From NCBI RefSeq assembly GCF_029227915.1, contig NC_079882.1, positions 3,844,001-3,908,000 on the forward strand: 64,000 nucleotides of DNA, read 5' to 3'. Of the stretch, positions 3,967 through 33,160 are shown piece after piece. The position numbers were made by a program, and so were the translations under genes. The DNA comes from Hydractinia symbiolongicarpus. Lineage: Eukaryota > Cnidaria > Hydrozoa > Anthoathecata > Hydractiniidae. Positions within the stretch are counted from its first letter, which is position 1, and each line of letters starts with the position of its first letter. The notes below the pieces were generated by a model. It searched no databases. It saw nothing but the letters and a program-made list of their open reading frames with translations, and had not been told where the DNA came from.

Positions 3967-4338
3967 ATGGTATCGGCTTTCATCAGCATTCTAATTATCA
4001 CCCTTGCTTTTGTCCACTGCGAAGCACACCTTGACAACTGCCCATCAAAATGCCAAAGTGATTTCTCGCAATGTATTGCAATTGTACAAGGTGAGGATAT
4101 CAGTGAATGTAACAAGTTAAAAACAGTTTGTTATCAGAAATGTAGCAGTGCTCTCAAGAGACGTGGACCAGATGCCAATGCAATGGCTTCACAAAGTTCG
4201 AACAAAAAAAACAAAAAATGTTGGGCGAAGTGTAAACTGCCTTCTAATGTCTGTTCTGATAAAAAGAAAGTACCTGAAAGACAAACTTGCCGAAACAGAG
4301 TGTATTTAACATGTTTATCAAAATGCATTCTCAAATAA
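3967..4338 (+). CDS. Secreted double-module cysteine-rich protein, paralogue 1
   Basis: This 123-residue protein begins with a clear signal peptide: a hydrophobic core at residues 3-17 with probable cleavage after about residue 20. The mature part holds 12 cysteines in two halves with nearly the same spacing: C-x3-C-x6-C-x11-C-x6-C-x3-C, then C-x3-C-x6-C-x11-C-x7-C-x3-C. A basic linker containing KRR separates the halves and could be cut by a proprotein convertase. The whole CDS lies in exon 2, and the ATG is 12 bp after the acceptor. The stop codon overlaps an AATAAA (4334-4339). I do not recognise the family. CX3C pairs recall helical-hairpin peptides, but spacing alone does not prove a fold. 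Function is unknown; secretion is well supported. The second half matches paralogue 2 exactly at DNA level. Confidence 0.88.
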   Translation: MVSAFISILIITLAFVHCEAHLDNCPSKCQSDFSQCIAIVQGEDISECNKLKTVCYQKCSSALKRRGPDANAMASQSSNKKNKKCWAKCKLPSNVCSDKKKVPERQTCRNRVYLTCLSKCILK

Positions 4339-5523: not shown

Positions 5524-8249
5524 ATAATCTAATAACTGCAGGGTATTATCGAGATGATGTTTTACACAGCTTTAAATAATAGCCATGAAATTGTCGTCGC
5601 CTTAATATTATAGTGACGGGTATCAGGACGAGTAGCTAGGCAATTTCAATAATACGCTGAGAAACAATTGCCCGCCATTTTTTCCCTCACTTTCTGGTCA
5701 GGCGATACGTTCTTTACCAGAGAACTTTGCTTTTATGTTAAGTTGATGGAGGCTGCCTCATGACGACAGCCATAAGCAAGAGAATTTGGAACAAGTATGC
5801 TGCTATGGTTACCATTCTGAAAAAAAGCAAAAAAGGAGTTTTGGCTACGATAATACGCACAAAACTAAATTTCCATGCAATAAACTAAATATTAAAATTT
5901 TAAAAAAGTGTTTAACAGGCACATGACGTCTACGACCGTATTCTAATCTTGTTTTTATTACGCCAACGCCGACGCGACGTTGTTTAATGTCGGTTATGTT
6001 TTGACCATAAAATACTTCTATATTTCAGATGCTGGATTCACAAAACAGTATAAGCTTGCATCTTTTGTGATGCTCCTGTGTATGCTTGGTATACGTTGCT
6101 CAAAATCTTATAATATGTTTATTATACTTTACATGTGGCCAAAGAACGTGAACAAATATTTGGTTTGAAATTTACAAACAACCATATTAGCGTTTAAAAT
6201 ATTTTGATTGCTGAGAAAATTAGCGCGTTTTGAAAACAGCATTCCCTTCTGTTAAACTATACAGCAATTTAACAATAAGAAAATATTAATATTGTATTTA
6301 AAATTTGAAAGATTTAAGTATTCCACAGCTCATCTTTACTTTGTGAAACTGTATGCTTCTAACAATCTGCACTTTTCTCCTGATATTTTAATGGAATTTA
6401 AATAGTTCTGTTCTGTAGGAGTATTGACCCAATCTTTTGATGCTAGCTCATTTTCATTTTTTATAAACAATAAGGGTAGTTCAGTGTAATCATGCTCGCT
6501 ATATAACGGATTTTTTATTTTATTTATGTTTGCTTCAACTTTCGTTGTAAAATTAACTGGATTCAGGTGAAAAGAAAGAGGTGAACTAACAACAAATTGA
6601 CCAAATTTTGTATATATTGTTCTTGGTTCAATCCAACAGGCGGTACACAACAAGCAAATCCATTTTTTTTTGTCCCTCTCCTGCAACTTAGCTTGCATTA
6701 AATTCAAGCTATCTTGCGGTGTATCTTTATCTCTACACAGTGCTAAAAGACACATCTCGTTTTTCTTTCTTCATATTTGCCTTACACTGGCATTTTAAAT
6801 AAAAGCATTGTTCATCCCATTTTGTACTCACTGAATCTGAAGTTAAATATCTTTTATTTTTAAACTTTTTCCCACGATCAAGAGTTTTTATTATAGAACT
6901 TTCTGGCGTTTTTCCACTCCTTAAACGATATTCTTCAATTTCTTTTATTGTGATCGCAGGAAGAAGAGACAAAGACTTTCCCCAAGTATCTAATTTACCA
7001 ACTTGTTTTTTTGACTTGTTAATAATTGCAATTGGTAAATCAGTATCTCTTAATAACAGTTCCAACAACTCTTGTTTACTCACAGCACTGCTTCTTCCAC
7101 TTTCCGTAGGCATTTTGACCATATTCTACCATTCCAAGCCTCGGTTCTAAGGTGACTTGAAAACGAGTCAGAGAATACGAGAAACCCGTATTACAGACCG
7201 AACACCTAACGGTAGAACATTTTGTCTCTTGCTCCCCAATCTAAAGAGTTAAAAGTCGTAAAGGTTGTTAAGGTATTGCTAGCTAGCTCTGTGCTCTGTG
7301 ATTTGGGATGGATGTTGGCCTGAAAATGTTACAAAAAACTCACTAAAGTTATCTTTCGTCATGTGGTAGTGTGAATTTGTAAGCCGTTTGTAAAGAATTG
7401 TTTGCTTGTGACTGATCATTACAGTAGCTAGCAGTAATGTGAGTGCACCTATTTTAAACAAGCAGAAGGTAGCTATAAAGATAATCTGATAAACGTAATG
7501 ATGAACATGATTATTATCATTATTATTACGAATATTTATACAGGATAGAGCCACTTCAGTGCTAGAAACACTGTTATCAATGTTGGTCCTGTTTTCGGAA
7601 TGCATACATTAAGTACACACCTGCATTACCTACCCAATTTCCTTCACATAGCATGGGTTGACCTGTAGCTGTGCTAAAAACACTTGCTAAACATCTCCAC
7701 GCTGTGGACCAAACCACGGACTTTGTAATTACGAAGCGAACTCCATAACCACAAGGTCACGTGAAGACAACCACGAAGTTGAGCTGTTTTTCATAAAAAC
7801 ATATTTCGAAGATTTTGGGATACTAATGCTTGAACATGATGATGAACATAATACGACTAAAAGCGGAACAAACGTCATCTTACAATTTTTGTTTTGACAA
7901 GATAAATCACTGATTGCAGAATGTGTTTATGTATGCTACAAATAGAATGTTATTGTATCAGTTTTCTTGGTTATATTTTCTTCTATCACGTTACAGTAGA
8001 TGATGGGTTTGGCACAGCAAAGTGGATTATGAATCATTTCCTACTGTTGCGCACACGCAGACTAGTAGCAACAATAGCAACAACAAACAAATTGTATATA
8101 AATAATATGTATTTTTATGAAAATACAGGTCAGTGTCGTGGTTGCCTTTATGTGTCTTGTTTAACCAGGTTCCTAGGTTATTTTTTCTACTTGTTACAAA
8201 CTTTTCCTTAACGTATGTAGGCTCTAGTCGATCGTGAGAACAATATTGT
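5524..8249. repeat. Direct duplication, copy B
   Basis: This is the second copy of 1-2726, in the same orientation. Together with the intervening 2,797 bp it forms a 5,523-bp repeat period enclosing one cysteine-rich secreted-protein gene. After 8249 the sequence is unrelated to that after 2726, so the second period is incomplete and lacks a gene copy. Confidence 0.95.
6336..7122 (-). pseudogene. Second copy of the decayed SWIM/YqaJ-type fragment
   Basis: This is an exact duplicate of 813-1599 carried in duplication copy B, with the same frameshift between the frames at 7122-6733 and 6755-6336. Sharing the lesion shows that the decay preceded the duplication. Confidence 0.3.
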
Positions 8250-12008: not shown

Positions 12009-12466
12009 TTTGTAATCCCATCGCACTTTGTAATCCCATCGCACTTTGTAATCCCATCGCACTTTGTAATCCCATCGCACTTTGTAATCCCATCGCACTT
12101 TGTAATCCCGTCGCACTTTGTAAGTCCATCGCACTTTGTAATCCTGGCGCACTTTGTAATCCCATCGCGCTTTGTAATCCCATCGCGCTTTGTAATCCCA
12201 TCGCACTTTGTAATCCCATCGCACTTTGTAATCCCATCGCGCTTTGTAATCCCATCGCGCTTTGTAATCCCATCGCACTTTGTAATCCCATCGCACTTTG
12301 TAATCCCATCGCGCTTTGTAATCCCATCGCGCTTTGTAATCCCGGCGCACTTTGTAATCCCATCGCACTTTGTAAGTCCATCGCACTTTGTGATACAATT
12401 TTGTAGCATTTTGTAATACAAAACCTATCGCCATTTGTAATCCTTTCATGACGCACTTTGTAATCA
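12009..12466. repeat. 18-bp minisatellite, about 21 clean units plus decayed units
   Basis: The unit is TTTGTAATCCCATCGCAC, 18 bp, repeated without gaps from about 12009 to 12392, with degenerate units to about 12466. Because 18 is a multiple of 3 and the unit lacks stops in several frames, four overlapping frames of 138-163 codons are open on the two strands. These are by-products, not genes. Unit variants (CAC versus CGC ends, AGTCC, GGCGCAC) are ordered and not random. Confidence 0.95.
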
Positions 12467-14661: not shown

Positions 14662-14978
14662 TTTTTAAATCAAAATATACACAAGCAAAAGAAGGACAAC
14701 AAGAAACACAGCAACTTAATCTTACAGGTAAGATACGCTTGTTTTTAATACTGTATTGTTTGTAAAATAAATCAAAGTCGGAAATATTGATCGCCACTAA
14801 TACCGGACCTAACCTTTGCAAATATTTTTCTGTTAATTGAGTTTGGTCCGCTTTACACAATCGCTACTGGTAGTCAAGCTTTAATAAATCAATTTTCTTA
14901 GACACTATTTATTCACTTAAAGTTTTGGTATAAAATTGACCATGTTTTATTTTATTTTCTCTGAAGGAAAATTTGAGA

Positions 14979-15350
14979 ATGGTATCCACTTTCATCAGCA
15001 TTCTAATTATCACCTTTGCTCTTGTTCAATGCGGAGCGTCCATTAACACGTGTCAATTAAAATGCCAAAGTGATTTTTCGCAGTGCATTGCAATTGTACC
15101 ACCTGAGGAAATCGGTGAATGCAACAAGTTGAAAACAGTTTGTTACCAAAAATGTGGCAGCACTATTAGGAGACATGCACGAGATGCCAATGCAATGGCT
15201 TCACAAACTTTAAACAAAAAAATCAATAAATGTTGGGCGAAGTGTAAACTGCCTTCTAATGTCTGTTCTGATAAAAAGAAAGTACCTGAAAGACAAACTT
15301 GCCGAAACAGAGTGTATTTAACATGTTTATCAAAATGCATTCTTAATTGA
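14979..15350 (+). CDS. Secreted double-module cysteine-rich protein, paralogue 2
   Basis: This 123-residue protein is exactly as long as paralogue 1 (3967-4338). It has a signal peptide (hydrophobic core about residues 3-17) and the same two six-cysteine modules: C-x3-C-x6-C-x11-C-x6-C-x3-C and C-x3-C-x6-C-x11-C-x7-C-x3-C. The linker carries RRHAR, again a plausible convertase site although the sequence differs from paralogue 1. I chose the ATG at 14979 because it aligns with the paralogue's ATG and follows the acceptor CTGAAG (exon starts 14967). The N-terminal half differs from paralogue 1 at many positions, but the last 116 bp of coding sequence (15228-15343) are identical to 4216-4331, including silent sites. 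Function is unknown. Confidence 0.88.
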   Translation: MVSTFISILIITFALVQCGASINTCQLKCQSDFSQCIAIVPPEEIGECNKLKTVCYQKCGSTIRRHARDANAMASQTLNKKINKCWAKCKLPSNVCSDKKKVPERQTCRNRVYLTCLSKCILN

Positions 15351-15800: not shown

Positions 15801-16428
15801 TCCTTTTTATTTCGCATTGTTGTCTGTGGGATGTGTTGAGTTGGTGGCACAACCAAGTCACGAAAACCTAGAAAAATTTTGGTATTAAAAAATAAAAAAT
15901 AAATTGTAACCCCCATAAAATGGTTGTTAGCCAGATCTTAGCTAGATAAGTATTAAACAGCACAATTTTGGTGTTAGAAGAAGTTTTTTTTTAACATTTT
16001 TAGTTTTTATAATAAAAAAGCCGTACGACAGTCTTTTTTATATTTTGTTGCACAAGGGTCTTGTTTGCATAATGAAGTTTGTGCAATTTTATGATTTAGC
16101 ACATTCTTTGCCACAACCTGCATTTATTGAGTAATTTTCAAATAATAATACTTTTCCATGAAATATTTTTTTTATTTACATACGCTTGTGTGATTGAAAC
16201 CAAAGAAACCAAACAAGAAATATGTTAGTAAAATGCGCCATAAGTTAAATGACAATTTCACAGACGATTGGCCTCCTCCATTTGTACATTAATCTGTCTG
16301 TATGTAAAATTTATCTTGAAAGATAAATGAAACCTTAGTCCGCAAAAATGAGCTCGAGAACCCCAAAAGAGACTCAGAGTCGAACAAACATCTAAAAAAA
16401 AATCCTGACCGCACATTCGAATGGATTA
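15801..16428. other. Intergenic, no supported gene
   Basis: AT-rich DNA with homopolymer runs. No gene or repeat is recognised. Confidence 0.35.
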
Positions 16429-16573
16429 TATTGTCTGCAGTATTTAAAAACAACCGCTTCAGAAAAAGCCTCATTCATTACATTACATGCTGTGGAAACA
16501 ATTGATGCTTTTATGGCGTGATTGACGCAATCAACACTAAATGTTTTTCACTGTATACGTAAATAAATGTTTT
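16429..16573. repeat. Left half of a duplicated host segment, interrupted by the transposon array
   Basis: Matches 24049-24193. In the later copy this segment runs straight into sequence that here lies 6 kb downstream (22579-22714). The break falls in a run of six T: four T remain on the left here and two T on the right. Confidence 0.85.
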
Positions 16574-17830
16574 TTGCGGAGAGAGAGCCATTGCTCGAAC
16601 GGAGCTATTTTCCTCGTTCCCATAAATATATTAGAGCGTGACAAATTTCCGCGTTTTCCCCTAGTACGTGAAATTTTGATGAAAACGTCCGACTTTTGAC
16701 CCACTTACCCCACTTTTTTTATGGTCATTTCTTTAAAAGGTTCCGTGAAAATCTGGCTAATCGAGACCACGCCGTTTCCAGTTGAGATCAGGTCGGCATA
16801 GAGCTTTTGCCATGGTCACTTTTACTAATATCACGTGACCTTTTCTAAGATACTTAGCGCTTCAAACGGAAATTGCGTTGATAGCCATATTGGCTTGTTG
16901 GTCGCAATGGACAGAAGTTCATTTTCAAGAAACGAAGAAAAGGTATGTTTAGCTAGCTGATATATCACTATATTTTTACATGTAATGATCCCCTTCTTAG
17001 CATTTCTCACACCTAAAGCTAGCTAGCATAAAACTGCAGACTTAGCTGCAATAATAATAGAACTTAGATAGCAAACTATATACTACCTATAGCTACTTCT
17101 TGTTTGCTCTTTTTATGCTAACTAGCTAGCATAAAAAAAGAGCAAACAGTGCCATATAGCTATCATAATACACTAGCTACACAGCTAGCATAAAATTAAC
17201 TACTTACATGGGTTAAAACTACCAATGTAGCTAACATAAAATTAGCTATTTTTGCTAGCATAAAATCAGCTACATATCACCATAGAAAAGTTGTTTTAAA
17301 CATATTTTCTAACTAGCTAGCTAACTAGCTAGCTATATATATACTACACAGTGAGTGAGATAATTCTACTCTTTAGAAATGTCCCATCACATAGATTGTT
17401 CTAGCTACAATCATCCACAAAATTTCTCGTCTCTACTGGCAATTTTATTCCAAAAACTAAGAACTAAAAAGTTTAGAAAGTCGAACGTAGAAAGAAGAAC
17501 GTAGCTAGCTAGATATTTTGCAGATAGTATGTTCATGAAGGTATGTCACGTGTAATCGTTTACCTTGCTGAGCCACAAAGGTCAGTGTTTAACATGAGGG
17601 GGAATGGAGAGCCATATTGGACGATTGTAGTTATATATATATTGTACGCACGTCCAGGAAATGTTTCATCAAATCGAAGATGAAACCGTTTGATCGATTA
17701 CCATGAGGCACGTGGGAACTTTGTTTTTTATACGATTCATTGTACAATTCAACCGAAAGTGGCATCTAAAATTTTTCGCTTGCGAACCTAGGGAACTCAG
17801 TTCCACGCTCCGCAACACTTTCTATATTGA
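16574..17830 (+). mobile_element. TTGCGGAG...CTCCGCAA module 1 (Helentron-like, non-autonomous)
   Basis: Starts TTGCGGAGAGAGAGCC and ends with CACGCTCCGCAACACTTTC just before module 2. The 8-bp inverted repeat TTGCGGAG/CTCCGCAA is terminal on the left but about 15 bp inside the right end in complete copies. Asymmetric inverted repeats of this kind are described for Helentron-class elements. The interior is a degenerate array of GCTAGC-ATAAAA units and a long hairpin (17101-17150). No transposase frame is present. A GGGACTCAGTCCC-type stem in the 3' part is decayed in this copy. Confidence 0.7.
17101..17150. repeat. Long hairpin inside module 1
   Basis: Arms TGTTTGCTC...ATGCTA and TAGCAT...GAGCAAACA are inverted, with a 2-nt bulge in the T/A run and a loop of about 6 nt. 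A related hairpin recurs in module 4 near 21853-21902. Confidence 0.8.
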
Positions 17831-19607
17831 TTGCGGAGAGAGAGCCATTGCTCGAACGGAGCTATTTTCCTCGTTCCCATAAATATATTAGAGCGTAACG
17901 AATTTCCGCGTTTTCTCCTAGTACATCAAATTTTAAAACGTCCGACTTTTGACCCACTTACCCAAATATTTTTTATGGTCATTTCTTCCGTGAAAATCCG
18001 GTTGGTCGAGACACGCCATTTTCAGTTAAGATCAGGTCGGCATACAGCATTAGCCACGTGATTCATAAGTTACTCTTACTAATATCACATGACATTTTCT
18101 CAGATACATAGCGCTTGAAACGAAAATTTAGTTGATGATAGCTTGATGATAGGGTAGAAGGGTATTTTGAGGAAAACGAAGAAAGGGTATGTACAGCTAG
18201 TAGATCACTATTTCTTTACATTGATGAACCCCTTCTTATCCTTACTGCCACCTAAAGCTAGCTAGTATAAAACTGCCCACTTAGCTGGCATAATAACAGA
18301 ACATATAGCTAGTTTACTTTAACCGTTTAGCTAGCTATAAAAAAAGGGCTATAGCATAAAACTAGCTACAAAGCTAGCATAAAATTAACTACATAACTGG
18401 GATAAAACTACATTAAGGGGGAATAGAGAGCCATATTTTCATGGTCGATTGTAGCTAGCTATATATATTGTACACACGTCAGGAAATAAACTTTTTTAAC
18501 CCTGCCGCTGAGCATACACCAGTGCGGCTGAAGTTACAGAAGGGAAAATTATTTCAATACTCGTTCAATCGTCAACATGTATTAAAAATCTCCAAGTGTA
18601 TTCATTCTTTCTTACCTAATTTCACGATATGTATACAAATAATGTCCCAATAATTTCTGTTTTTGTAACTTGACCCGATCCTTACACATGTGGCTCTAAT
18701 GATGTTTTTGTTCAGTCTGAAATAAGATATTTTTATCCTATTGTCATGAAGACTTGTTTGCAAACAAAACATATAGTGCTATTTGATTTTTAGCTGCACA
18801 GGCTAACAACAGGCTGTTTCTGCTGTGTTTTTGTAAACCGAAGTTGCAGTAAAGGTTTTTTTAAAAATGTATTACGGCTGTCCGATTTTATGATATTTTT
18901 GATCTAGCACAGAAACTTTTCCTATAAAATATTGCAGGATTCTTTAGGAGCGTAGAAACAGGTTTTGAACAGTGTTTTTATTTTTAAATGTTACAAAAAC
19001 TTTTCCGCAAAATAAAATTGCTGAATGATTGTTTTAGCTGTGTTGGATAACAACAGGGTGTTTACTGTCTGTTTATTTGAACCAAAGTTTTTTCGGATGT
19101 GCGCCACAGTATATTTGTACTAATCACTCAGCCTAGTGTTAACGACAAGCTAATACCTGTGTTTCTATTTAACAGAAGTTGTGCTAAAGTTTTTTTGAAA
19201 GGGTTTGTTTACCTATACTAACGGCGCACCACAGATTAAAGTACATATATATTTTAACTTTTACCGGGAACATTTTGTGAAACAGTTTTCGCTATGACAT
19301 GGCACAATATGTAAATTGTGTTTCTATTCAAGCTAAAGTTGAAGGAAATATATATTTTGTGAATCTGAAAAATATAATTACACACCCGACACACCTTTAA
19401 TGTTGTGTGTTTCACTCGATTTATGATATACTGCACACCTGTACTAAAGCAAGCCACCTGAATGTGTGGTACAGTTTAAAATTTGTATTAATTGTTCCAT
19501 CAAGCATTTAACGCCAGGTAACACAGTTGCTTGTGGCTTAACCAGCGTAAATTCCTAAGTGTATATAATACTCACCTGTAAAGTTTTGCATATATATTTA
19601 TGTTTAT

Positions 19608-19676
19608 GCCCTGCTGGTCTAATGGCTATGACACTCATGCAAATGAGAGATCCAGGTTCAAATCCTGGACAGGGCT
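19608..19676 (+). ncRNA. tRNA-like sequence with 4-nt anticodon loop, copy 1
   Basis: The sequence folds as a cloverleaf. The acceptor GCCCTGC pairs with ACAGGGC (6 of 7). The D-arm GTC/GAC contains a perfect A box (TGGTCTAATGG). The T-arm CCAGG-TTCAAAT-CCTGG contains a perfect B box (GGTTCAAATCC). The anticodon arm is abnormal: CTCAT and ATGAG pair over only GCAA, a GNRA tetraloop, so no 7-nt loop can form and decoding is unlikely. It lies inside a transposon module. A T-run that could stop Pol III is first seen about 38 bp downstream. Confidence 0.6.
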
Positions 19677-20055
19677 AGGAAAAACATAATTATCTTGCAC
19701 CTACAACAACCAGGTTTTCATATAATAGGTAATCTTTGAGTAAGACTTCTCTGATTATTTCTATATCTTGACTTTTTAATGTTGTTGTCATTGGAACCAA
19801 GTTAATCTCAGATTTATCAAAAAATGATATGTCGTTATGACCGATTGTTTAAATACTTGTAATGGCACATAATTCTGCTATGATTCACTGTGTATTGACC
19901 TGAGATAAATTTGAGACTTTTTTTTGAGATATTGAACTTGAAATATTTGCACCTCAATATTTTCTATACTCCTGGACTAATATGATACTTAACTTAGACA
20001 TATTGAGTATACGCAATCTTTGAGTTGCAAGGTGGAGATTTTCTATTAAAGTCAT

Positions 20056-20268
20056 GCACCCCTGCCTTGCCGTTCCATTGCCTTGCTAGCACTGACCGTG
20101 CCTTTCTTTGCCTACCCTTCCTATGCCTTTTCTGGTGCCTGCCTACTATGTCCTTGGCTCCCATCATGCCTTTCCTACCCCTGCCTTCCTGATTCCTCTT
20201 CCTATTTCCTTGCCTGCCTTTGCCCTTTCCTTGCCGTGCTTAATGCCTTTGCCTTGGCAACCTCTCCG
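20056..20268 (+). repeat. Pyrimidine-rich degenerate TGCCT tract
   Basis: About 210 bp with strong strand asymmetry, built from degenerate TGCCT/TTGCC units at the 3' end of module 2. A short remnant (ATGCCTTTGCCTTGGCAACC) is present at the same place in module 6, so the tract expanded in module 2 or contracted in module 6. Confidence 0.7.
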
Positions 20269-20286
20269 CAACACTTTCTATATTGA

Positions 20287-21424
20287 TTGCGGAGCGGAGT
20301 GAAGGGGAGCGCCAGCGAGCCGAGCGCAGCGAAGCTATTTTCCTCGTTCCCATAAATATATTAGAGCGTATCGAATTTCCGCGTTTTCTCCTAGTACACC
20401 AAATTTCAAAACGTCCGACTTTTGACCCACTTACCCAAATATTTTTTATGGTCATTTCTTCCGTGAAAATCTGGTTCGTCGAGACCATGCCGTTTCCAGT
20501 TGAGATCAGGTCGGCATACGGCTTTAGCCACGGTCACTCTTACTAATATCACGTGACATTGTCTCACATACATAGCGCTTGAAATGAAAATTGCGTTGAT
20601 GGCCATATTGGCTTGTTGGACGTAATGGACGGAAGGGCATTTTCAAGAAAACGAAGAAAGGGTATGTTAGCTAGTATATCACTATTTTTTACATGTAATG
20701 AGCCCTTTTCTAGCCTCACTCACACCTAAAGCTAGCTAGTATAAAACTGCCGACTTAGCTGGGATAATATTAAAACTTAGATAGCATATATAGCTATAGC
20801 TAGCTAACTACTTTAAGAATAGTTAGCTAGCTCGAGCTTACACCAGTGCGGCTCAAGTTACAGAAACGGAAATTATTTCAATAAATATGTATTGGGGAAA
20901 CTTTTTCAACATGTATATACATTTGTTATTACTGAGGCGTTTTAAATTCTGACAAGCGGTTCTCATGCAATCATCAACGCCTACTGAAAATCTTCAAATA
21001 TATATATATATATATAATTCATTTTTTGGGTTCAATCAGAACAAATTTCAGAAAAATGAAAAAATTTCCTGTTCGGGAAATCTCATAATTTTTTAAACCA
21101 GAATATAATTTCACAATAAAGAAATATTTTCCGTTTTTGTAACTTGACCCGAACACCATTCTTGTTCCGTTTAACCTTTTTTAGCATTTTGGATACATCA
21201 GGTTCTAAAGAAAATATGTCCCTGGTGCAAGTAATATTGCGGAAACCCCAGGAAATGTTTCATCAAGGCGAAGATGAAACAGTTTGATCGATTACCATGG
21301 AGCACGTGGGAACTTTGTTTTTTATACGATTCGTTATACAATTCAACCGAAAGGGGCATCTAAAATTTTTCGCTTGCGAACCTAGGGGACTCAGTCCCAC
21401 GCTCCGCAACACTTTCTATACTAG
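20287..21424 (+). mobile_element. TTGCGGAG module 3
   Basis: Starts TTGCGGAGCGGAGTGAAGG and ends CTCCGCAACACTTTCTATA followed by CTAG at 21421-21424. Nearly identical to module 5 (22880-24048). Relative to module 5 it lacks a short piece near 21240, where module 5 has a segment bounded by TGCG direct repeats. An 87-codon frame across the left end recurs in module 5 but starts in the inverted repeat, and I regard it as fortuitous. Confidence 0.7.
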
Positions 21425-22578
21425 TCCCCTAGTACATCAAATTTTGAAAATGTCCGATTTTTGACCCACTTACCCAAATATTTTTTTGGTCATTTCTTCC
21501 GTGAAAATCTGAATGATCGAGACACGCCGTTTTCGGTTGAGATTAGGTCGGCACAGAGCTTTAGCCACGGTCACTCTTACTAATATCACGTGACATTTCT
21601 CCAGATACATAGCGCTTGAAATGAAAATTACGTTGATATGGCCATATTGGCTTGTTGGTCGTAATGGACGGAAGGGCATTTCCAAGAAATGAAGAAAGGG
21701 TATGTTTAGCTAGCTAATATATCACTATTTTTTTACATGTAATGATCCCTTCTTCGCCTTTCTCACACCTAAAGCTAGCTAACATAAAACTGCCGACTTA
21801 GCTGGAATAATAGAACTTAGATAGCATATAGCTATAGCTACCTAGCTACTTCTTGTTTGCTCATTTTTATGCTTACTAGCTAGCATAAAAAAGAGCAAAC
21901 AGTGCCATATAGCTACCATAATACACTAGCTACAAAGCTAGCATAGAATTAACTACTTAACTGGGATAAATCTACCAATGTATATAGCTAACATAAAATT
22001 AGCTATTTTTGCTAGCATAAAATCAGCTAGCTACATAATAGCAGCATAGAAAAATTCTTTTGGACAGATTTTCTAACTATACATATACTACACAGTAAGT
22101 GAGATAATTCTACTCTGTAGGAATGTCCCATCACATAGCTTGTTCTAGCTACAATCATCCACAAAATTTCTTGTCTCTGCTGGCAATTTTATTCCAAAAA
22201 CCAAGAACTAAAAAGTTTAGAAAGTCAGCAAAAAAAGAACATAGCTAGCTAGCTAGATATTTTGCAGATAGTTTGTTCATAAAGGTATGTCACGTGTAAT
22301 CGTTTACCTTGCTGAGCCACAAAGGTCAGTGTTAAACATGAGGGGAATGTAGAGCCATATTTTTGTGGATGATTGTAGTTATATATATATTGTACGCACG
22401 TCCAGGAAATGTTTCATCAAATCGAAGATGAAACCGTTTGATCGATTACCATGAAGCACGTGGAAACTTTGTTTTTTATACGATTCATTATACGATTCAA
22501 TTGAGAGGGGCATCTAAAATTTTTTGCTTGCGAACCTAGGGGACTCAGTCCCACGCTCCGCAACACTTTCTATACTAG
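21425..22578 (+). mobile_element. TTGCGGAG module 4, 5'-truncated
   Basis: Begins abruptly with TCCCCTAGTACATC, matching module 1 from about 100 bp inside its left end. It includes the hairpin related to 17101-17150 and ends CTATACTAG at 22578 followed by T. Subfamily as module 1. Confidence 0.7.
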
Positions 22579-22714
22579 TTACTTTATTACTTTACTGGTG
22601 ATAGATATTTTCCAAAGAGCTTCTGCTTTAAAATTTTGAACATTTTGTTTTTTATTTATTCACGCAAACAAATAAGAAACTTTCCGTACTAAAATTGCTA
22701 AAAAAATTACATTA
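22579..22714. repeat. Right half of the interrupted host segment
   Basis: Matches 24192-24329 with about one difference. Together with 16429-16573 it reconstitutes the uninterrupted copy at 24049-24329. Confidence 0.85.
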
Positions 22715-22879
22715 TTGCGGAGAGAAGCGGAGGGCGCGTCAGCGCCCGGAGCGTAGCGGAGCCCATTTCCTCATTAAATAAGCCAAATATAAGGGACGGA
22801 GGAGAGTGTATAGGATTTCCGCACGTATACATCAAAATTTTCAACTCAGTTCCACGCTCCGCAACACTTTCTATATTGA
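22715..22879 (+). mobile_element. Short deletion derivative: Y-type left end joined to X-type right end
   Basis: The first about 128 bp match the left end of module 6 (AGCGGAGGGCGCGTCAGCGC and following). The rest is only the right terminal piece CTCAGTTCCACGCTCCGCAA. The interior is missing, giving a MITE-sized element. It sits at the same host position as module 6 occupies in the second host copy. Confidence 0.7.
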
Positions 22880-24048
22880 TTGCGGAGCGTAGTGAAGGGG
22901 AGCGCCAGCGAGCCGAGCGCAGCGAAGCTATTTTCCTCGTTCCCATAAATATATTAGAGCGTATCGAATTTCCGCGTTTTCTCCTAGTACATCAAATTTC
23001 AAAACGTCCGATTTTTGACCCACTTACCCAAATATTTTTTATGGTCATTTCTTCCGTGAAAATCTGGTTCGTCGAGACCATGCCGTTTCCAGTTGAGATC
23101 AGGTCGGCATACGGCTTTAGCCACGGTCACTCTTACTAACATCACGTGACATTGTCTCACATACATAGCGCTTGAAATGAAAATTGCGTTGATGGCCATA
23201 TTGGCTTGTTGGACGTAATGGACGGAAGGGCATTTTCAAGAAAACGAAGAAAGGGTATGTTAGCTAGTATATCACTATTTTTTACATGTAATGAGCCCCT
23301 TTCTAGCCTCACTCGCACCTAAAGCTAGCTAGTATAAAACTGCCGACTTAGCTGGGATAATATTAAAACTTAGATAGCATATATAGCTATAGCTAGCTAA
23401 CTACTTTAAGAATAGTTAGCTAGCTCGAGCTTACACCAGTGCGGCTCAAGTTACAGAAACGGAAATTATTTCAATAAATATGTATCGGAGAAACTTTTTC
23501 AACATGTATATACATTTGTTATTACTGAGGCGTTTTAAATTCTGACAAGCGGTTCTCATGGCAATCATCAACGCCTACTGAAAATCTTCAAATATATATA
23601 TATATAATTCATTTTTTGGGTTCAATCAAAACAAATTTCAGAAAAATGAAAAAATTTCCTGTTCGGGAAATCTCATAATTTTTTAAACCAGAAAATAATT
23701 TCACGATAAAGAAATATTTTCCGTTTTTGTAACTTGAGCCGAACGCCATTCTTGTTCCGTTTAACCTTTTTTAGCATTTTCGATACATCAGGTTCTAAAG
23801 AAAATATGTCCCTGGTGCAAGTAATATTGCGTCCGGAACACACTACGGTATATACTGCTAATGCGGAAACCCCAGGAAATGTTTCATCAAGGCGAAGATG
23901 AAACAGTTTGATCGATTACCATGGAGCATGTGGGAACTTTGTTTTTTATACGATTCGTTATACAATTCAACCGAAAGGGGTATCTAAAATTTTTGGCTTG
24001 CGAACCTAGGGGACTCAGTCCCACGCTCCGCAACACTTTCTATACTAG
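22880..24048 (+). mobile_element. TTGCGGAG module 5
   Basis: A complete-looking copy: left end TTGCGGAGCGTAG, right end with GGGACTCAGTCCC stem, CTCCGCAA, and terminal CTAG (24045-24048) followed by T. The interior carries the TAGCTAGC-rich array. Nearly identical to module 3. Confidence 0.75.
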
Positions 24049-24329
24049 TATTGTCTGCAGTATTTAAAAACAACCGCTTCAGAAAAAGCCTCATTCATTA
24101 CATTACATGCTGTGGAAACAATTGATGCTTTTATGGCGTGATTGACGCAATCAACACTAAATGTTTTTCACTGTATACGTAAATAAATGTTTTTTACTTT
24201 ATTACTTTACTGGTGATATATATTTTCCAAAGAGCTTCTGCTTTAAAATTTTGAACATTTTGTTTTTTATTTATTCACGCAAACAAATAAGAAACTTTCC
24301 GTACTAAAATTGCTAAAAAAATTACATTA
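24049..24329. repeat. Uninterrupted copy of the host segment (empty site)
   Basis: Joins sequence equal to 16429-16573 directly to sequence equal to 22579-22714 through an unbroken T6 run. It therefore shows the insertion point of modules 1-4. It begins exactly after the CTAG end of module 5. Confidence 0.85.
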
Positions 24330-26230
24330 TTGCGAAGAGAAGCGGAGGGCGCGTCAGCGCCCGGAGCGTAGCGGAGCCCATTTCCTCATTAAATAAGCCA
24401 AATATAAGGGACGGAGGAGAGTGTATAGGATTTCCGCACGTATACATCAAAATTTTCAATTTTCGTCAACTTTTTGACTGGGTTGCCCAGTAGCTTACTG
24501 TGGTCATTTTCCCCGTAAATTTATGATTCAGCGAGACAACATCAAAGGCACGGTGATGGAGTGCTTTTGTTACTTTTAAAGATGGCCTAACGGGGATTTC
24601 CAGTTGAGATTAAGGTACCTTTAGCCACGTGATATATAGTCACTTTGACTAATATCACGTGACTTTTTCTCGGATAACATAGCGCCTCAAACTCAAACTT
24701 CCGTTAATCTAAGCTAGCTATATCGCAGCCGAAGGAGGATGGGCTTGTTCAAGAAAATGAAGAAAGGGTATGTTTAGCTCGCTTGTATATCACTATTTTT
24801 TACATGTAATGAACCCATTCTTATTCTCACTCACACCAAAAGCTAGCTAGCTTAAAACTGCAGATTTAGATAGAATAATAATAGAACTTAGATAGCATTT
24901 AGCTACCTAGCTACTGTAAGAGTTAGCTAGTATAAAAACAAACAAACAATGCAATATAGCTAGCATAAAACTAGCTACAAAGCTTGCGGAAAATTAACTA
25001 CTTAGCTGGGATAGAACTACCCATGTAGCTAGCAATAAATTGCTATTTTTGCTGGTATAAAATCAGCAACATAGCTAGCATAGAAAAATTGTTTGAGACT
25101 GATTTTCTACCTATCCTCTATCTAGCTAGCTATTATACATAGCTATATACTACACAGTGAGTGAGATAATTCTACTCTGTAGGAATGTCCCATCATACAG
25201 CTTGTTCTAGCTACAATCGTCCACAAAATGGCCAAACATAGCCAGCTAGATATTTTGCAGATAGTAAATGTTTATATACAGGTATGTCACGTGTAATTGT
25301 TTACGTTGCTTAGCCACAAATGGGCAGTTCTTAATATTAAGGGGGAATAGAGAGCTATATTTTCGTGGACGGTTGTAGCTAGCTATATATATTGTACAAA
25401 CGTCAGGAAATAAACTTTTTTAACCCTGCCGCTGAGCATACATCAGTGCGGCTTAAGTTGCAGAAAGGAAATTATTTCAATATATATATATATATCGGGA
25501 AATTTTTACAACATCAACATTTGTTATTACTGAGGCTTTTTAAATTCTGAATAGCGGTTCTCGTTCAATCGTCGACATGTATTGAAAACCTGCAAATGTA
25601 TTCATTATTTCTTTTTCACAATATGTATATGTTTTTTTCAGTTTTGGATAAGAGCTTTTTATCCTACCGTCATGAAAACTTGTTTGCAAAATAAACATAT
25701 ACTGCTGTTTGATTTTTAGCTGGACATGATAACAACAGGCTTTTTGGGAAAATGTGTTACGCCTATCAGATGTCACAATTAATTTTTGATCTTTCACAGA
25801 AACTTTTCCCATAAAATATTGCAGTTTTTTTTGCTTTAGGAGGGTAAAAACAGGTTATAAACTGTATTTTTATTTTTAAATGTTACAAAATTTTCCACAA
25901 AGTAAAATTGTTTTAGGTGCGTAGGATTACAACAGCTTGTTAACTGTCTGTTTGTTTGAACCGAAGTTAGGATATATAAGATGCACATGTAAAGTTTTTC
26001 ATATATATATATTCATGCCCTGTTGGTCTAATGGCTATGACACTCATGCAAATGAGAGATCCAGGTTCAAATCCTGGACAGGGCTAGGAAAAATATAATT
26101 ATCTTGCATCTACAACAAGCAGGTATTCATAAGTATATGATATTAGCTATATTGAGTATAATAGGTAATCTTTTGAGTTGTACTTAATGCCTTTGCCTTG
26201 GCAACCTCTCCGCAACACTTTCTATACTAG
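24330..26230 (+). mobile_element. TTGCGGAG module 6 with tRNA-like sequence
   Basis: The left end has one change (TTGCGAAG). The Y-type left region is followed by a part with ATATCACGTGAC, the TAGCTAGC array, the TTAACCCTGCCGCTGAGCAT segment, the tRNA-like copy 2, and the right end CTCCGCAACACTTTCTATA plus CTAG (26227-26230), then T. No transposase frame is present. Confidence 0.7.
26017..26085 (+). ncRNA. tRNA-like sequence with 4-nt anticodon loop, copy 2
   Basis: Identical to copy 1 (19608-19676) except at acceptor position 7, where T replaces C, giving a perfect 7-bp acceptor stem (GCCCTGT/ACAGGGC). The A box, B box and the GCAA-capped short anticodon arm are the same. It lies in the equivalent position of module 6. 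Confidence 0.6.
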
Positions 26231-29120
26231 TTATACCCTTTCGATGGTTTTTCCTTAAAACAAAAATACATGTATTTTTTATTTAATGCGAGCGTAAATT
26301 TCTAACGTGCTTTCGCTTTGGAGCTGTCTGTGTTATGTAACCAAAGTCTCATTAATTGTAAGTTTGTCAGTGCAGATCTTTTTGTTTTTGTTTTCATGCG
26401 TCGAAACATTCTTATGTATTTAGCATACATATCCATGTACTTAACTTAGGGGAAAGATCCATAATGTTTTAAGAAATATGGCTCACATTAGCAAAAGAGT
26501 ACATCTCTTTTACTTTACAGTAATGTAAAGTAAAAAAAGTAATGTAAATGTAAGTAATAATATAAAGTACAGAAAAATACTGCTACTACCTTGAGAGAAG
26601 ACATTATTGCGGAGAGAAAATTTTCCGGAAGTTATCTTGGTCATTAAGAAAGAAGAGCTTTCCAAAAAGCGTACACTTAATTAGCGGACACTCTAAATAT
26701 CGAACAATATTTTTGCATCCAAGATGAAATATGGCGTTTTTTTCCTCTTCGGACAGTCCAAAAAATCAATAGCGAGCAAAGAAAAATAGACAAAAATGAA
26801 TAGTTTTTTTAACATTTATTTCAAACATTTTAGAACTTTTGTTTCCAGGTTGCTTTTAATCTCGTCAGTTTTGTTTATCCATCACTTTATTAGCTTGCCA
26901 TAGCCATGAATGCGATAAATAACAGGAACCTCTAAACCATAGCCATCCTAAATAAAAAAGGTTCTGTTGCTACAACGCTAACAGTGCTTGACGAGCTTGT
27001 AGAATTAAACAATCTCAATAGAGAGGAATGAGAAACTCTTTCCTCCATTAAGGAGAGACTAGAGATCGTCAACACAAATAGCAAGACTTTTTATGAAATC
27101 TTTTTGAATTTTTAATATTTTTTATGAATGATGATATCACAATCAAACATGGTGTTAAGGTCTAATATTAAGTAATTCACATTTTAAACAAAATCTGCTT
27201 CCGCGAGGATTTAAAATAGCTTGTTATTCACATTTCCCGAATTCCCTAATTATGTCAAACTCAATTAAAGAGGTCAATACTAAAAATGATTTTTATCCCT
27301 AACTTTCTTAGCAAAAGGTAAAACAAATAACCTAATTTAGTAAATATTTATGTTCGTTAAGTGCTTTAATTGCGAACTGAAAAGCCTTCATATAGTCAAG
27401 CTTTCCAAGAATAGCCTCGTTTTTAAAACAATTATTTCCTTCAAATCTAAATAAAATTCAACCAGAATATTATATTGCTCTAAAAACTTCATTTTTGTCA
27501 TGATAATTTAATATTCTATCAAATTTTGAATGACGTCATAATTATTATTATTTTATGAAATTCGGGAAAGGTGTATTCGGCACTTTTTTAGAAAAAATTC
27601 TTGCGACTTGGCGAAAAAAAAAATGCAATTTTAGCGGAACTTAATTTTGATAATAGGATCTAAAACCGGAAAGATTTCCTTCTCTTTTTATGCCGTTTCT
27701 GTAACGTGGTTAGCTCAATTGCGCAGCAGCGCCATGAATTCCTCATACACACATTTGTCTTTAAATGTCTTTTAAATTTTTTGACGAATTGATTCCAAGA
27801 AGGGTCTCCTAAAATAGGTCTGGAAATGAATTAAATCTGAGAAATACCACGCATATTTCAGGTTTACAAAAGTAGAAACCTAGAAAAACAGAGTTTTTAG
27901 TTTTTAAAGCTGCTATAAGACTGTAGTCAAGTGCCAAAAGTATTGATGGAGATTTCAAAAGAGACCGACTAAGAATATGGAAATATCTACGCCCAATATT
28001 TCACGTACAGAAGTGTCAAGTAGCCCGGTTGGAATTCACTTTTGTCCTATGAAAGGTCTCCCTTTTTAAAGTAATGTAAAACTAGCTGCAGGTATTAAAT
28101 TCTTCTTCACTCTACTTCTTTTCATTATAATGCATTTTAAAAAACCATATAACAATAAACAAAGAAAAACTATTAGTTTGAACACACAATCCAATCTTTT
28201 CCAGTGCTCGTTGTTGACGCTAGGAAGTTTACAGTCTATATTTCTAGTTAAAATTGTGATATACCTTATTGGTAAAAAAAGTCACTCTTTGCCAACTAAG
28301 TTGAACTGAATTCCTTTCTGCGAGAATCTCATCCCCAGGGCTTTTTTGTTAGGTTTTTTTTCATGTTTCTCCTTCCCAGCGTAGAGTTTTTCAGTGTTAC
28401 TTATTTTTTAAACTATTTTATGGAAACAGGCGGAAAATGACCAACAAAATATAATCTTATTCCATGCGTTCTTACATGGCAAAAACAGTATCAACGTGAA
28501 ACAGATCATTGAAGAAAGTCTTAACAATTGTAAATAGACTAGCTTTCAAACATGAACTTAAAAAGATAAAAGTTAATTTTTCTTCACCTTTCGCTTCTTT
28601 CTTTGAAATAAATTAAATAAAAAGTCAATAATTATCATTAAACTATGGTGGATTTGAACTGTTTAAGACAAGATTGTCATAAACAACATTCTCTTTGCAG
28701 CAGAGATATACACGCCATTCGATCACAATATTTTGTCAAAAAAAACTTCCTTTATCGCCGCTTTATTCAACCTGACTTTTATTGGGACTTATAACGAATA
28801 AAAAATGTTCTCACTTTGCGGGGGATTGCAATTTTACGACAGGAGTAATTCTCTCAGAATTTATTTATGTGAGAGTAAGATGTCGTATTGGTTACACAAG
28901 CTATTATTTTACAGTTAGTTACCAAGGTGTTGCTAAGAAGGTATACTAGGAATAAACCACAGAACAGACCACAAAGGAAAAATTTATAAACTAGACCAGT
29001 TCAAAATTTCGAATTAATTTGTTTAATCCAATGACAACAAAATTTGAAAAAATCGACTTTCATTAGTACCGATCTTATTTATACCTATATCTACACACCA
29101 TCCGTCTAAGTTTATCGCTA
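26231..29120. other. Gene-poor intergenic DNA
   Basis: No supported gene. A fragment with ACATTATTGCGGAGAGAA near 26600 matches only the left end of the TTGCGGAG family and looks like a solo terminus. The rest is AT-rich with short frames. Confidence 0.4.
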
Positions 29121-29124
29121 ACAT

Positions 29125-29200
29125 ATTGTAGTGGAATTCTCTGCGGCTCACAGTTCTGGTGACCGCGGGGTGGATCGAATCCCGCTCACTGCTAGGCAGT
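29125..29200 (+). repeat. tRNA-derived SINE-like head (weak)
   Basis: A TAGTGGAATTC segment, an extended hairpin around GTGACCGC, and a B-box-like GGATCGAATCC flanked by a GCGGG/CCCGC stem resemble a decayed tRNA head. No clear tail is present. Confidence 0.35.
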
Positions 29201-29974
29201 ATGTTAGTGATGAACAAAGTAGTTCTTTTTTAATAAAACGTTTAGCACTTTCTTTGTTATGTTACCTTGACTTTACCTTGAGCTAAAAGGGTTAAACAGC
29301 AGCAGATAATTCTCACACGGATTAAATTTTCGGGACTTTGCAGCTTTGTGCACATCTTTGAAATAAATTACAATGTATGGTGATTCAGTAAATTACATAT
29401 ATTTTTGGATGTGCCACTAAAATAGGTTTACCGTCATTCTAGGTCTGTAAATAAACTTCTTTATTTGTGAGACCATAAGTATTTTCAACCATTCTGATGG
29501 GCTCAGAACAAAAATTTACATAACTAAAACATAACTTGGAATCAATAGAAAAAAAGAATTCATATGCCTAACATATAGCACTAACATCAGAAACTTTTTA
29601 GTAAGATGGACACGCAGGCGAGGGAAGTAGAATTAATGTGTGGCAAAAGAAAGTCGAATTGAATTTTAAGTTTGGAAACAATAACATATAGCATGAGTTT
29701 AATACCCTCGAAATAATATAACAGCTTTAACAAGATAGAGCAATCACAATATCTCCCTAAAAGATTGATTGAGGCATAGAACAAACTTAAAAACGATATA
29801 AATGGATCTTTTTATAAGACAAATCTTCAACCGGATGGAAGGCTGTTGATGAATACTTGTCCGACGATCTTACCAGCGACTCATTTGACAATAAAAAAAA
29901 TGGTTGCGGACAATCGTGCGCTAAACGAAAAGAAGGCGACCAAGAGAAAGTCAACCCTCAAATATGTTTCACGT

Positions 29975-30235
29975 CTTCCACCATAACAGTCCTCATAGTG
30001 GTTATAGCTCTCGTACTCTGTGCGGGAGACCAAAGTTTCAATTCCTCTTGACGGCGATTCAACATGGGCGAGTGAATGTTGCCATAGCCCGGGTTAACCC
30101 AAGCCGTGTGTGGGAAATTGGGGAAATGTTGGCCGTTGGATATTGCTGGGAGTTGTCTAGTAGAGCGCGGGCCCTAATTGTGTCTGCGTAGCTTAAAATG
30201 ATCATTAAATACACTAGGACTGTCCATTTAAGCCA
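29975..30235 (+). repeat. tRNA-derived SINE
   Basis: A tRNA-like head (TAGTGGTTATAGCTC; stem CTCTCG/CGGGAG; B-box-like GTTTCAATTCC) is followed by a GC-richer body (GGGCGAGTGAATGTTGCC, GCCCGGGTTAACCC, GCGCGGGCCC) unlike the AT-rich surroundings. The composition step and the tRNA-like head support a SINE. Ends are approximate. Two short frames through it are shadows. Confidence 0.5.
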
Positions 30236-30622
30236 TGGCCCCTCCTGGAAATAACAGACAGGCTATATCCCTCGATATTTGTATTTCACAGCATCAAAAT
30301 TTTAACCTATTTAACCTTCCATCTGCAAATCACAGACAGATCTTCAAGACTTCGATCACACAGTTGATCTTTGTATTGGCAAATCCAAAAAAAGACTTTA
30401 AAAATTTGATTGAAAACTTTAGGATTTTTTAAAAATCCCCGTGGAAAACGACCTCAAAGAAGAATATCATATAAACTCTAGATAGAATAACACGATCAAA
30501 ACGTATTATTCCTAGTCGATAAGTCAGTAAAAAATCCACAGACATGCAGAAGGACAATAGAAAGATTCATCATTTGAATTTTGATGACGTCAGCAATAAC
30601 CCGTCGATACACAAAAGTTTTA

Positions 30623-30767
30623 TCCATATTATAATGCCCGTATACGTCTGTCCGTCCGTCCGTCTGTCTGTCACGCAAAATGGTAGCTTAGCTGCGCAAT
30701 AGCGAGAAGCACGCAATGCGGTGTAAAAATGGGCGAACCCGTGGATTTTCCACGGGCTAACGACTAG
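30623..30767 (+). mobile_element. Mini-Helitron-like element
   Basis: A 5' TC terminus (TCCATATTATAATGCCCG), a GTCC/GTCTGTCT microsatellite, the shared CACGCAAAATGGTAG core, a 3' hairpin CCCGTGG-ATTTT-CCACGGG, 7 nt, then CTAG. Flanked by A before and T after. Matches the minus-strand copies at 51483, 52685 and 63853. Confidence 0.85.
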
Positions 30768-33160
30768 TTACTTAAATTTGTTTAACCGATGCCTCAAACC
30801 TAAAGGTGAGCTGTATTAGCTTCATAAATTTAATGTTAAAAAACATTGACGGTAATCTAATATGGACATTGTGACGTAACGTCAAAGTAACTAACTTTTT
30901 GTTTAACAATAAAGATATATAGTTTTTTCTTTATTTTAAGGGGAACACTGAATCTTCGTATTATTCTATAAGACTAGTCAAAAAGCCCGAGGAAAAATCC
31001 ACAATGGAAATACATAGGTTGCTTCAGAAATTTTGATGACGTCCGTCATAGACAAAATGAATTAAAAGCAACTTGTTTACCTGTTGTCTCTTTTAAATAG
31101 GGGTTTAAATGCTGACGAAGAAAATTTGTATACCCGTTGCCTCTCTTGCAGAGGTTGGAACGTTGATCAAGAAAATGTATAGGATCGTGTACTTTTGGCA
31201 TACAGTTACAGAGATATTGGGGTCATCAACCCATCTGTTCCTAAACTGGTAAGAACCAGCTTTGAATTTACCCAATTTAGTCCCACATAGCCCCTAGTTA
31301 CCCACGCTGAGGTACTTTAATAAGGTTTACGTTTGATAAAGTGTCCCATTCTTATAAGCTCAGGAGAGGAGTCAGTGTTAGACTTCCTAGGCTCCGCAAT
31401 CATTATGAACTAAGCGCTTTTCGCGTCAGAGCAGCATAGGCATGAAATCACTTGTTAGTATCCATAAAAAATGCGCCCTTATTAAATGTTTCAAGCATTG
31501 GTGCACGAAACACGAGAAGTTATTGTCAATGGTCGATTTGTCAGTAAATATGCATTTAGAACCTTCTACAATTTTATTAATTTTATTTTTCAATAATTGG
31601 TAAATTAGTTTTTAAGTATACTTCTATACGAACTCAAAATAAAGAAAGAAAATAGGAAGATAAGAATACGCTAACTTTTTTCGTACATAACTAAGTCGAC
31701 ACACTACTGATCAAAGTTCTTAAGACCAACATGTTGATAGAGATCCAATTTTGTACCCGACAGGTCCACACGATACTGAGCCTTTCCAAAATGATGAAGG
31801 TGAAACGAAATGATTCCGTTTTAATGCAAAAAGTTAAATGATGCCGCTTCGATACTGAAATGGCATCGTGTGAACAAAAGCATCCAAAATGGCGACATTA
31901 AAAGGTAAACAAATACTCAAATTCTTCATTTTTTTAGTGTGCCTGTACACATTATGTTCTGGATTAGTATCTTTTCGGAATGACATCTATCTAAACGTGC
32001 AAACCTAGTCTGAGTCTTCCTTGTCTCAAAATTTACCAAATAATTCAGGTTATTTTTGATTGAGCAAAGTGAATTAAAAAAAATAACGAATTAATCTTCT
32101 GAGACGAAAAATAAACAACGAACAGCGAGTTGAACTTTTGACAAAAACCTTCGACGTTAATGAAGTTATTATTAGACACAGTCCCAAGATCGTGCTGTGA
32201 TGTTTACCGTTCGAAAAAAACAACTTCTAATAACAGTTTAGAAACCGTTATTATCACAGACCCGGTTAAGCTGAAACAATCACTCAACAATTTTATTTTG
32301 TTAAATAAGTAAAAGTAGACTGTTGTTGCAAAAGTAATTGTGGGTAAAAAAAAATTGTTGTCTTATCAATAAACTTAGGCTTTTGGCAAAGTTTATATTA
32401 AGTAAAAGGTGTAGTTGCCAAACTAAATTGAGCCTAAAGCTGTTATTTGCTACTTTCACTTATAAGCGAGAGTTAATAGCCACAACTCACAGTTGCAGCT
32501 TAGTAAAAATCAGATCGGTGAAAATATCAGAAAAATAAATAATCCTGGCTAGCATAAAGGGCTCTTAGGCTATACCAAAGGCTAGCTAACAATTTTTATT
32601 TTTGTGTTATTATCACCAATCTTTTTATTTTTTTATTTAGCTAGCTAGTTACAACTGAACTGGTTTTGGAGCTGATGCAGCAACCTCTGGCTTAAAAGGA
32701 AATGCAATTGGCTACTACAAAATTCTTATTAATTCTTATAGGTACCTACAACTTTTAATGTAATATAAACTTTAGCGATAATTAACCTACTATAGCTACA
32801 CGAGGCTTTAGAATGTGTTTTTATTGGAGCACCCAGCTGGGTTGCACAATTAATTTTTTTTAAACCTTCAAGGGAACCGAAATGGAAACGGCCCTTGAGC
32901 TTTTATGTCTTATAAAGAAAGACTGTTCTTGATAACATTAATTTGCGTTCAAAGTGATTTTTAAAGTTTTAATTAAAAAACTTAACGCCATTAGGCCCCT
33001 CTCAATAAAGGGAACAGTTTGTTACATAAAAACCTGTAATGGTAGGCTTTCATAGCATTTATTTCGAGGTTAATTACGTTCTGCGTCTTGTTACAAATAA
33101 AATTAACGAAAATAAATAACAAATAGTTGAGCTATAATAAATTTATATATTATTTTAAAA
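30768..33160. other. Gene-poor intergenic DNA
   Basis: No supported gene. A decayed copy of the mini-Helitron 3' end (GACTAGTC...GCCCGAGG) lies near 30972. Confidence 0.35.

Follow-up and report, generated by a model that had tools for sequence, protein, structure and literature searches.

Self-comparison of a 64,000-nucleotide (nt) window of Hydractinia symbiolongicarpus DNA (contig NC_079882.1) revealed two copies of a host-like sequence, here called stretch A, one of which is interrupted by a 6,005-bp block. The block is probably a composite, non-autonomous Helitron-like (rolling-circle) element, made of related units and carrying inner stop signals that are partly dead. The filled and empty copies lie next to each other and are nearly identical, which fixes the ends of the family without guessing.

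By direct comparison, the sequence left of the block (16429-16573) was identical to 24049-24193 at 145/145 positions, and the sequence to its right (22579-22844) differed from 24194-24459 at 2/266 positions. A blastn comparison gave 147/147 and 99.2% identity. Overall, the two parts differed from the contiguous sequence at 24049-24459 by 2 of 411 bases, one mismatch lying in the 281 bp of stretch A and the other in the adjoining 130 bp of element sequence. The first copy contained, in addition, the block at 16574-22578. Its filled site reads AAATAAATG-TTTTTT-GCGGAG ... CTAG-TT-ACTTT and the empty site AAATAAATG-TTTTTT-ACTTT, so that eight T residues at the junction correspond to six in the empty copy. 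The initial annotation had proposed this filled and empty pair, with 16429-16573 and 22579-22714 contiguous at 24049-24329, and both the size of the block and its precise ends were confirmed. The empty copy is not isolated, since a further unit stands on either side of it: U6, whose last base is 24048, and U7, whose first is 24330. In the first copy, stretch A is preceded at 16428 by unique sequence; the second copy follows a CTAG that closes at 24048.

The same annotation had treated the extra block as one element. That part did not hold, because self-comparison divided the block into four related units (U1-U4), ruling out a single element; three more units (U5-U7) follow it (Table 1). Within aligning stretches, the units diverged from one another by 5% to more than 30%. 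U2 and U7 aligned in pieces with 63-98% identity. U4 lacks its first 83 nt: it begins at the equivalent of 16657, and its alignment with U1 runs from U1 position 84 onward. U5 is a fusion of 130 nt resembling the start of U7 (one difference) with 37 nt resembling the end of U1, the two overlapping by the 2 nt AA. At the boundary between U3 and U4, a unit end lies within another unit (GCGTTT^TCCCC, the caret marking the insertion point), at a point uninterrupted in U1, U2, U3 and U6, which indicates that nesting has also occurred. Tandem insertions of truncated units, as seen here, are reportedly also found among the centromeric Helitrons of plants treated by Xiong, Dooner and Du in 2016.

Table 1. 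Positions within the window of the two copies of stretch A, the inserted block, units U1-U7 and the tRNA-like sequences
Feature	Position	Strand	Remarks
Stretch A, filled copy, left half	16429..16573	+	145/145 identical to 24049-24193
Stretch A, filled copy, right half	22579..22714	+	matches 24194-24329
Stretch A, empty copy	24049..24329	+	contiguous
Inserted block, composite of U1-U4	16574..22578	+	absent between 24193/24194
U1	16574..17830	+	starts TTGCGGAG, ends CTCCGCAACACTTTCTATATTGA; inner TTGA end; 3' fold z -1.78
U2	17831..20286	+	starts TTGCGGAG, ends CTATATTGA; inner end; tRNA-like sequence inside
U3	20287..21424	+	starts TTGCGGAG, ends CTATACTAG; 95.2% identical to U6
U4	21425..22578	+	5'-truncated, U1-like, ends CTATACTAG; 86.9% identical to U1
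U5	22715..22879	+	fused U7-like start and U1-like end; TTGA end
U6	22880..24048	+	U3-like, ends CTATACTAG beside T of stretch A
U7	24330..26230	+	starts TTGCGAAG, ends CTATACTAG; tRNA-like sequence inside
tRNA-like sequence in U2	19608..19676	+	shortened anticodon loop; Rfam tRNA 42 bits, gathering 29
tRNA-like sequence in U7	26017-26085		Rfam tRNA 51 bits, gathering 29

The units share their ends. All six that possess a 5' end begin with TTGCGGAG except U7, which has TTGCGAAG, and TT opens each of these six starts (U1-U3, U5-U7). At the other end, 7/7 units close with CTCCGCAACACTTTCTATA followed by four bases. The inverse of TTGCGGAG, CTCCGCAA, lies 15 nt from the 3' end in every one of the seven, which as members of one family are not seven independent cases. 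As a chance control, 200,000 draws of a random 8-mer and a random 30-nt stretch yielded 205 in which the stretch held the inverse of the 8-mer, about one per thousand. Exact TTGCGGAG was found 14 times in the window on both strands, always within 16574-31399, and 50 times with one mismatch allowed, where 24.9 occurrences were expected.

The last four bases fell into two classes. Four ends (U3, U4, U6 and U7) close in CTAG, and the next base was T in all four (TCCC, TTAC, TATT and TTAT). With a T frequency of 0.33 in 26231-64000, this would occur by chance with a probability of about 0.01. The other three (U1, U2 and U5) close in TTGA, which is three transitions away from CTAG. TTGCGGAG followed directly in 3/3 of these, versus 0/4 after CTAG. 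The length of these joints (U1 to U2, U2 to U3 and U5 to U6) is exactly that of a perfect circle joint, CTAG-TTGCGG. It is less likely that the TTGA joint represents a 3' end cut short at CTATA and followed by four host bases, in which case the perfect-joint length would be a coincidence. No description of CTAG-to-TTGA joints was found in the accessible parts of the open-licence literature on composites, on joints between ends and on types of termini. A 19-base query from the 3' end matched twice in 257 Gb of genome contigs, once in a draft bacterial genome and once in an archaeal one, where about two matches were expected by chance, and pattern scans of viral contigs gave none.

A further sequence, E8, extends from 26607 to about 31413 (4.8 kb) and is possibly a second family or a relative. 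On its 5' side, TTGCGGAG follows ACATTA; on its 3' side there is CTCCGCAA with a weak upstream hairpin and a proposed CTAA end followed by G; its 3' end is uncertain. We saw no long open frame in E8, and neither a second copy nor an empty site in the window.

Four insertion points could be read, two of the form T^T and two of the form A^T, always before a T. Only that of the block, TTTT^TTAC, is documented by both sides and an empty copy. For U6, the TATTGTC adjoining its 3' end is joined without interruption to GGATTA at 16428/16429, giving ATTA^TATT; for U7, both flanks but no empty copy gave ACATTA^TTAT; and the fourth is the 3' end of U3 at GCGTTT^TCCCC. The TT target previously assigned to the family agrees with two of the points read, the other two being A^T. 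The claim that no target sequence is duplicated is one of several readings that the junction allows. At the site with an empty copy there was no sign of a duplication longer than 2 bp, and the T counts were compatible either with TTGCGG...CTAG inserted without duplication or with TGCGG...CTAG and a 1-bp T duplication. With this one site considered by itself, a TT duplication flanking GCGG...CTAG fits as well. A TT duplication in general was rejected, as the 3' flanks are TC, TT, TA and TT (a fit in 2/4) while every 5' end starts with TT.

In U1, U3, U4 and U6, folding of the 3' ends revealed a short hairpin (GGGACTcAGTCCC; GGAACTcAGTTCC in U1) situated about 26 nt before the terminus, with z scores of -1.7 to -2.3 against shuffled sequences. 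By eye, the hairpin of U1 differed from those of U3, U4 and U6 by a paired change of one G-C to A-T. In all four units the hairpin lies upstream of the 3' inverted repeat. The sequence upstream of the U2 3' end is the same as in U7. A stable GGGCGC/GCGCCC hairpin near the 5' end of U5 and U7 excludes the inverted repeat, and only for E8 was the inverted repeat inside the 5' fold (z -0.83).

The units have no recognisable coding capacity and appear to be gene-less. The longest open stretch within 16400-31500 was 145 codons, and 50 mononucleotide shuffles of 16574-31413 gave longest stretches of 112 codons on average and 174 at most. Of the 34 open stretches that reach 60 codons or more, ten were compared with Pfam at an E value of 0.1, and none gave a match. 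A partner is presumed to supply the enzymes. The tRNA-like sequences of U2 and U7 are complete and possibly captured tRNAs or heads of short interspersed elements; their anticodon loops are three bases short, and ARAGORN consequently assigned no amino acid.

Taken together, the units work with good probability like a Helitron-like element. The rolling-circle reading was supported by the precise ends, the asymmetric inverted repeats, the 3' hairpin in 4/7 units, the T after 4/4 CTAG ends, the lack of detectable coding sequence and, at the one site with an empty copy, the lack of any sign of a duplication above 2 bp. The narrower label of the initial annotation, Helentron-type, fared less well: the rolling-circle pattern agrees with it, whereas the mixed target, the reversed order of repeat and hairpin at the 3' end, and TT...CTAG termini nearer to proto-Helentron do not. 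The family with these ends could not be placed under any published name.

We compared the units with known families as these are described in the available parts of the cited papers. The TT...CTAG ends appear to match the proto-Helentron of Phytophthora infestans better than Helentron (PMC4067079). Shared with proto-Helentron-Pi are the 5' TT, the 3' CTAG, insertion before T (A^T) and the absence of a reported duplication (PMC4067079); here TT was found at 6/6 five-prime starts, CTAG at 4/7 three-prime ends and A^T at 2/4 points. However, proto-Helentron-Pi is about 14 kb long with a Rep/helicase gene (PMC4067079), whereas our units have no recognisable genes, carry inverted repeats near both ends and also use T^T. 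With Helitron1 and Helraiser, for which read-through of 3' ends is known, the units share CTAG followed by T and a hairpin near the 3' end, but they differ in the 5' TT instead of TC, the presence of inverted repeats and a hairpin 26 rather than 11 nt from the end (PMC4778049, PMC5876387). The Helitron1 combination of 5' TC, 3' CTRR and A^T target was accordingly absent, the units having 5' TT, CTAG in 4/7 and a mixed target.

Helitron2 is similar in its asymmetric inverted repeats (8-15 bp, a range that includes ours), a 5' repeat 0-2 bp from the end, the 5' T, a hairpin near the 3' end and, in FoHeli, composites with several 5' ends (PMC3627910, PMC5148889). The units show the Helitron2 placement of the repeats, the 3' copy being subterminal and the 5' copy within 0-2 bp of its end. 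In contrast, the 3' repeat of Helitron2 lies 20-30 nt from the end (PMC3627910), and here it lies 15 nt from it and downstream of the hairpin. The Helitron2 order, with the 3' repeat upstream of the hairpin, was reversed in U1, U3, U4 and U6, and a 5' hairpin including the 5' inverted repeat was not supported in the 6/7 starts folded. The CTAG end and the lack of a supported 5' hairpin also set the units apart from Helitron2 (PMC3627910, PMC5148889).

A strict Helentron/HINE family, with a TT target and an autonomous partner that carries an endonuclease domain, seems to us doubtful. The resemblance to Helentron, HINE and DINE-1 extends to inverted repeats near both ends, a 3' palindrome, a T-rich target entered without clear duplication and non-coding elements, and the palindrome of U1, U3, U4 and U6, 26 nt from the end, falls within the published range of 8-35 (PMC4067079). 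Against this, A^T was used at 2/4 insertion points, the units end in CTAG, and no partner is known. Mite HINEs have an inverted repeat of 12-15 nt and DINE-1 has one of 13, compared with 8 nt here. At the 3' end, the mite HINE repeat precedes the palindrome and stands 38-60 nt away from the terminus (PMC4067079), whereas ours follows the palindrome and is 15 nt from the terminus. The units do not show this arrangement of mite HINEs.

For the composite rolling-circle element, we infer the following course from the arrangement of the units. Units of one family, with 5' TT(GCGGAG) and 3' (CTCCGCAA)-15 nt closing in CTAG, would have become joined head to tail. The Rep/helicase of a partner would nick a 5' end, copy as far as a CTAG and insert the copy before a T. 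The CTAG would take part in ending the copied strand, and TTGA joints would be read through, so that a string of units moves as one. The joint may have arisen a single time, possibly out of a circle; after losing its CTAG it would have been carried within the composite and shuffled by recombination. The fused U5 between the two copies of stretch A suggests recombination of U7 with an element inserted at ATTA^TATT (24048/24049), on the other chromatid or the homologue. This is the likeliest origin of the second copy of stretch A: such an exchange would duplicate stretch A in tandem and leave the fused U5 behind, and the block would have entered the first copy afterwards.

Work on Helraiser bears on several of these steps, again as given in the accessible text. 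Helraiser forms circles with exact CTAG-TC joints and inserts beside T (PMC4778049; circles also in PMC5876387), and even when its 3' end is intact, about 11.7% of events read past it (PMC4778049). Experiments also showed new 3' ends that close in CTTG beside a T (PMC4778049). In Fusarium, FoHeli inserts into itself and forms composite elements with several 5' ends (PMC5148889). More tentatively, and rather unlikely in our estimate, CTAG could be a stop signal independent of the hairpin, its inner replacement by TTGA turning the joints into read-through points and letting strings of units spread as composites. At the U1 joint the hairpin is kept and CTAG is gone (at U2 the upstream sequence is as in U7), which would separate two parts of the 3' signal; the Helraiser experiments described in the accessible text are ones in which the hairpin, or the entire right end, was removed or exchanged (PMC4778049).

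Several points weigh against a rolling-circle composite with CTAG as its stop. Neither a Rep/helicase gene nor an autonomous partner was seen within the 64-kb window. The 3' fold was weak or absent in U2 (z -0.87), U7 (-0.38) and U5 (+1.41), and among six 5' folds (U6 left out; U1 and U2 identical over 60 nt) none was better than shuffles, with z from -0.83 to +2.81. Helraiser can do without its right end, keeping about 24% of its activity (PMC4778049). The three TTGA joints probably derive from one event, so that the 3/3 are not independent. The 9-mer CTATATTGA occurs once more within U7 at 26147, away from any joint, making template switching there another possible source of TTGA joints. Finally, the intact CTAG of U3 is internal to the block. 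Movement of the block as a single piece would mean that CTAG does not stop copying absolutely, unless nesting brought U4 in.

The block may instead have grown in place. Nested and end-to-end insertions would have accumulated in the first copy of stretch A, and recombination between repeats would then have removed 83 bp from the 5' side of U4. The end of U3 within the U4 unit, at a point uninterrupted elsewhere, agrees with this, and nesting would account for the missing start of U4. However, several events would be needed in a copy of stretch A that differs from the empty one at just 1/281 positions, and units 5% to more than 30% apart where aligned have not all recently arisen in place. We consider growth in place rather unlikely. 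We give less weight still to an assembly join of two haplotypes as the source of the tandem filled and empty copies, which strikes us as improbable. Alleles may show 2/411 differences, and the 100% identical sequences at 1-2726 and 5524-8249 could likewise be a false duplication, but the join would have to fall exactly at the CTAG-T end (24048/24049), where ATTA^TATT is a suitable insertion point. Even between alleles, filled and empty sites could still be validly compared.

A cut-and-paste (DDE) element with no or a very short duplication, either Spy or another group with a TT or T duplication, is very improbable, given inverted repeats that stand at the very 5' terminus but 15 nt inward of the 3' terminus, AAATTT at 0/4 insertion points, a TT duplication fitting only two of the four flanks though six 5' ends start with TT, and head-to-tail joints and a 5'-truncated unit, which are not typical of cut-and-paste. 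Spy, by comparison, has an AAATTT target and repeats at both termini. The T counts at the block's own site do fit a TT or T duplication, and the earlier argument that missing duplication excludes cut-and-paste is not sufficient by itself, because Spy elements, which use a DDE transposase, insert in AAATTT and leave none, according to the part of PMC11304231 available.

Elsewhere in the window, a 2,726-bp direct repeat (1-2726 and 5524-8249; 100% identical, 5,523 bp apart) represents a recent duplication or an assembly artefact. At 3967-4338 and 14973-15350 lie two related small genes, both rich in cysteine, whose translations open with what reads like a signal peptide; a protein search with the former (3967-4335) returned one 81% relative besides itself, and the open frame at 816-1247 had no relative in a protein search. 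An array of 21 copies of an 18-bp unit (12009-12391) is open in several frames on both strands, and a minisatellite at 49678-50649 has 30 copies of a 32-bp unit. The only Pfam match among ten open frames elsewhere in the window was a DUF5745 domain (E 2.9e-22) in the open stretch 41796-42074, which may be CEP95-like, a name that would fit an animal host; comparison of this exon with solved structures found nothing.

The composite rolling-circle element thus probably represents a non-autonomous family, itself new, of a known kind of transposon, whose composite structure is instructive. Its seven 3' ends form a small natural experiment on how rolling-circle copying stops, with CTAG beside other DNA and TTGA at end-to-end joints. 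If copies across the whole genome keep this split, the terminal tetranucleotide, and not only the hairpin, would help to set the end of the copied strand, and composite elements would have a simple origin.

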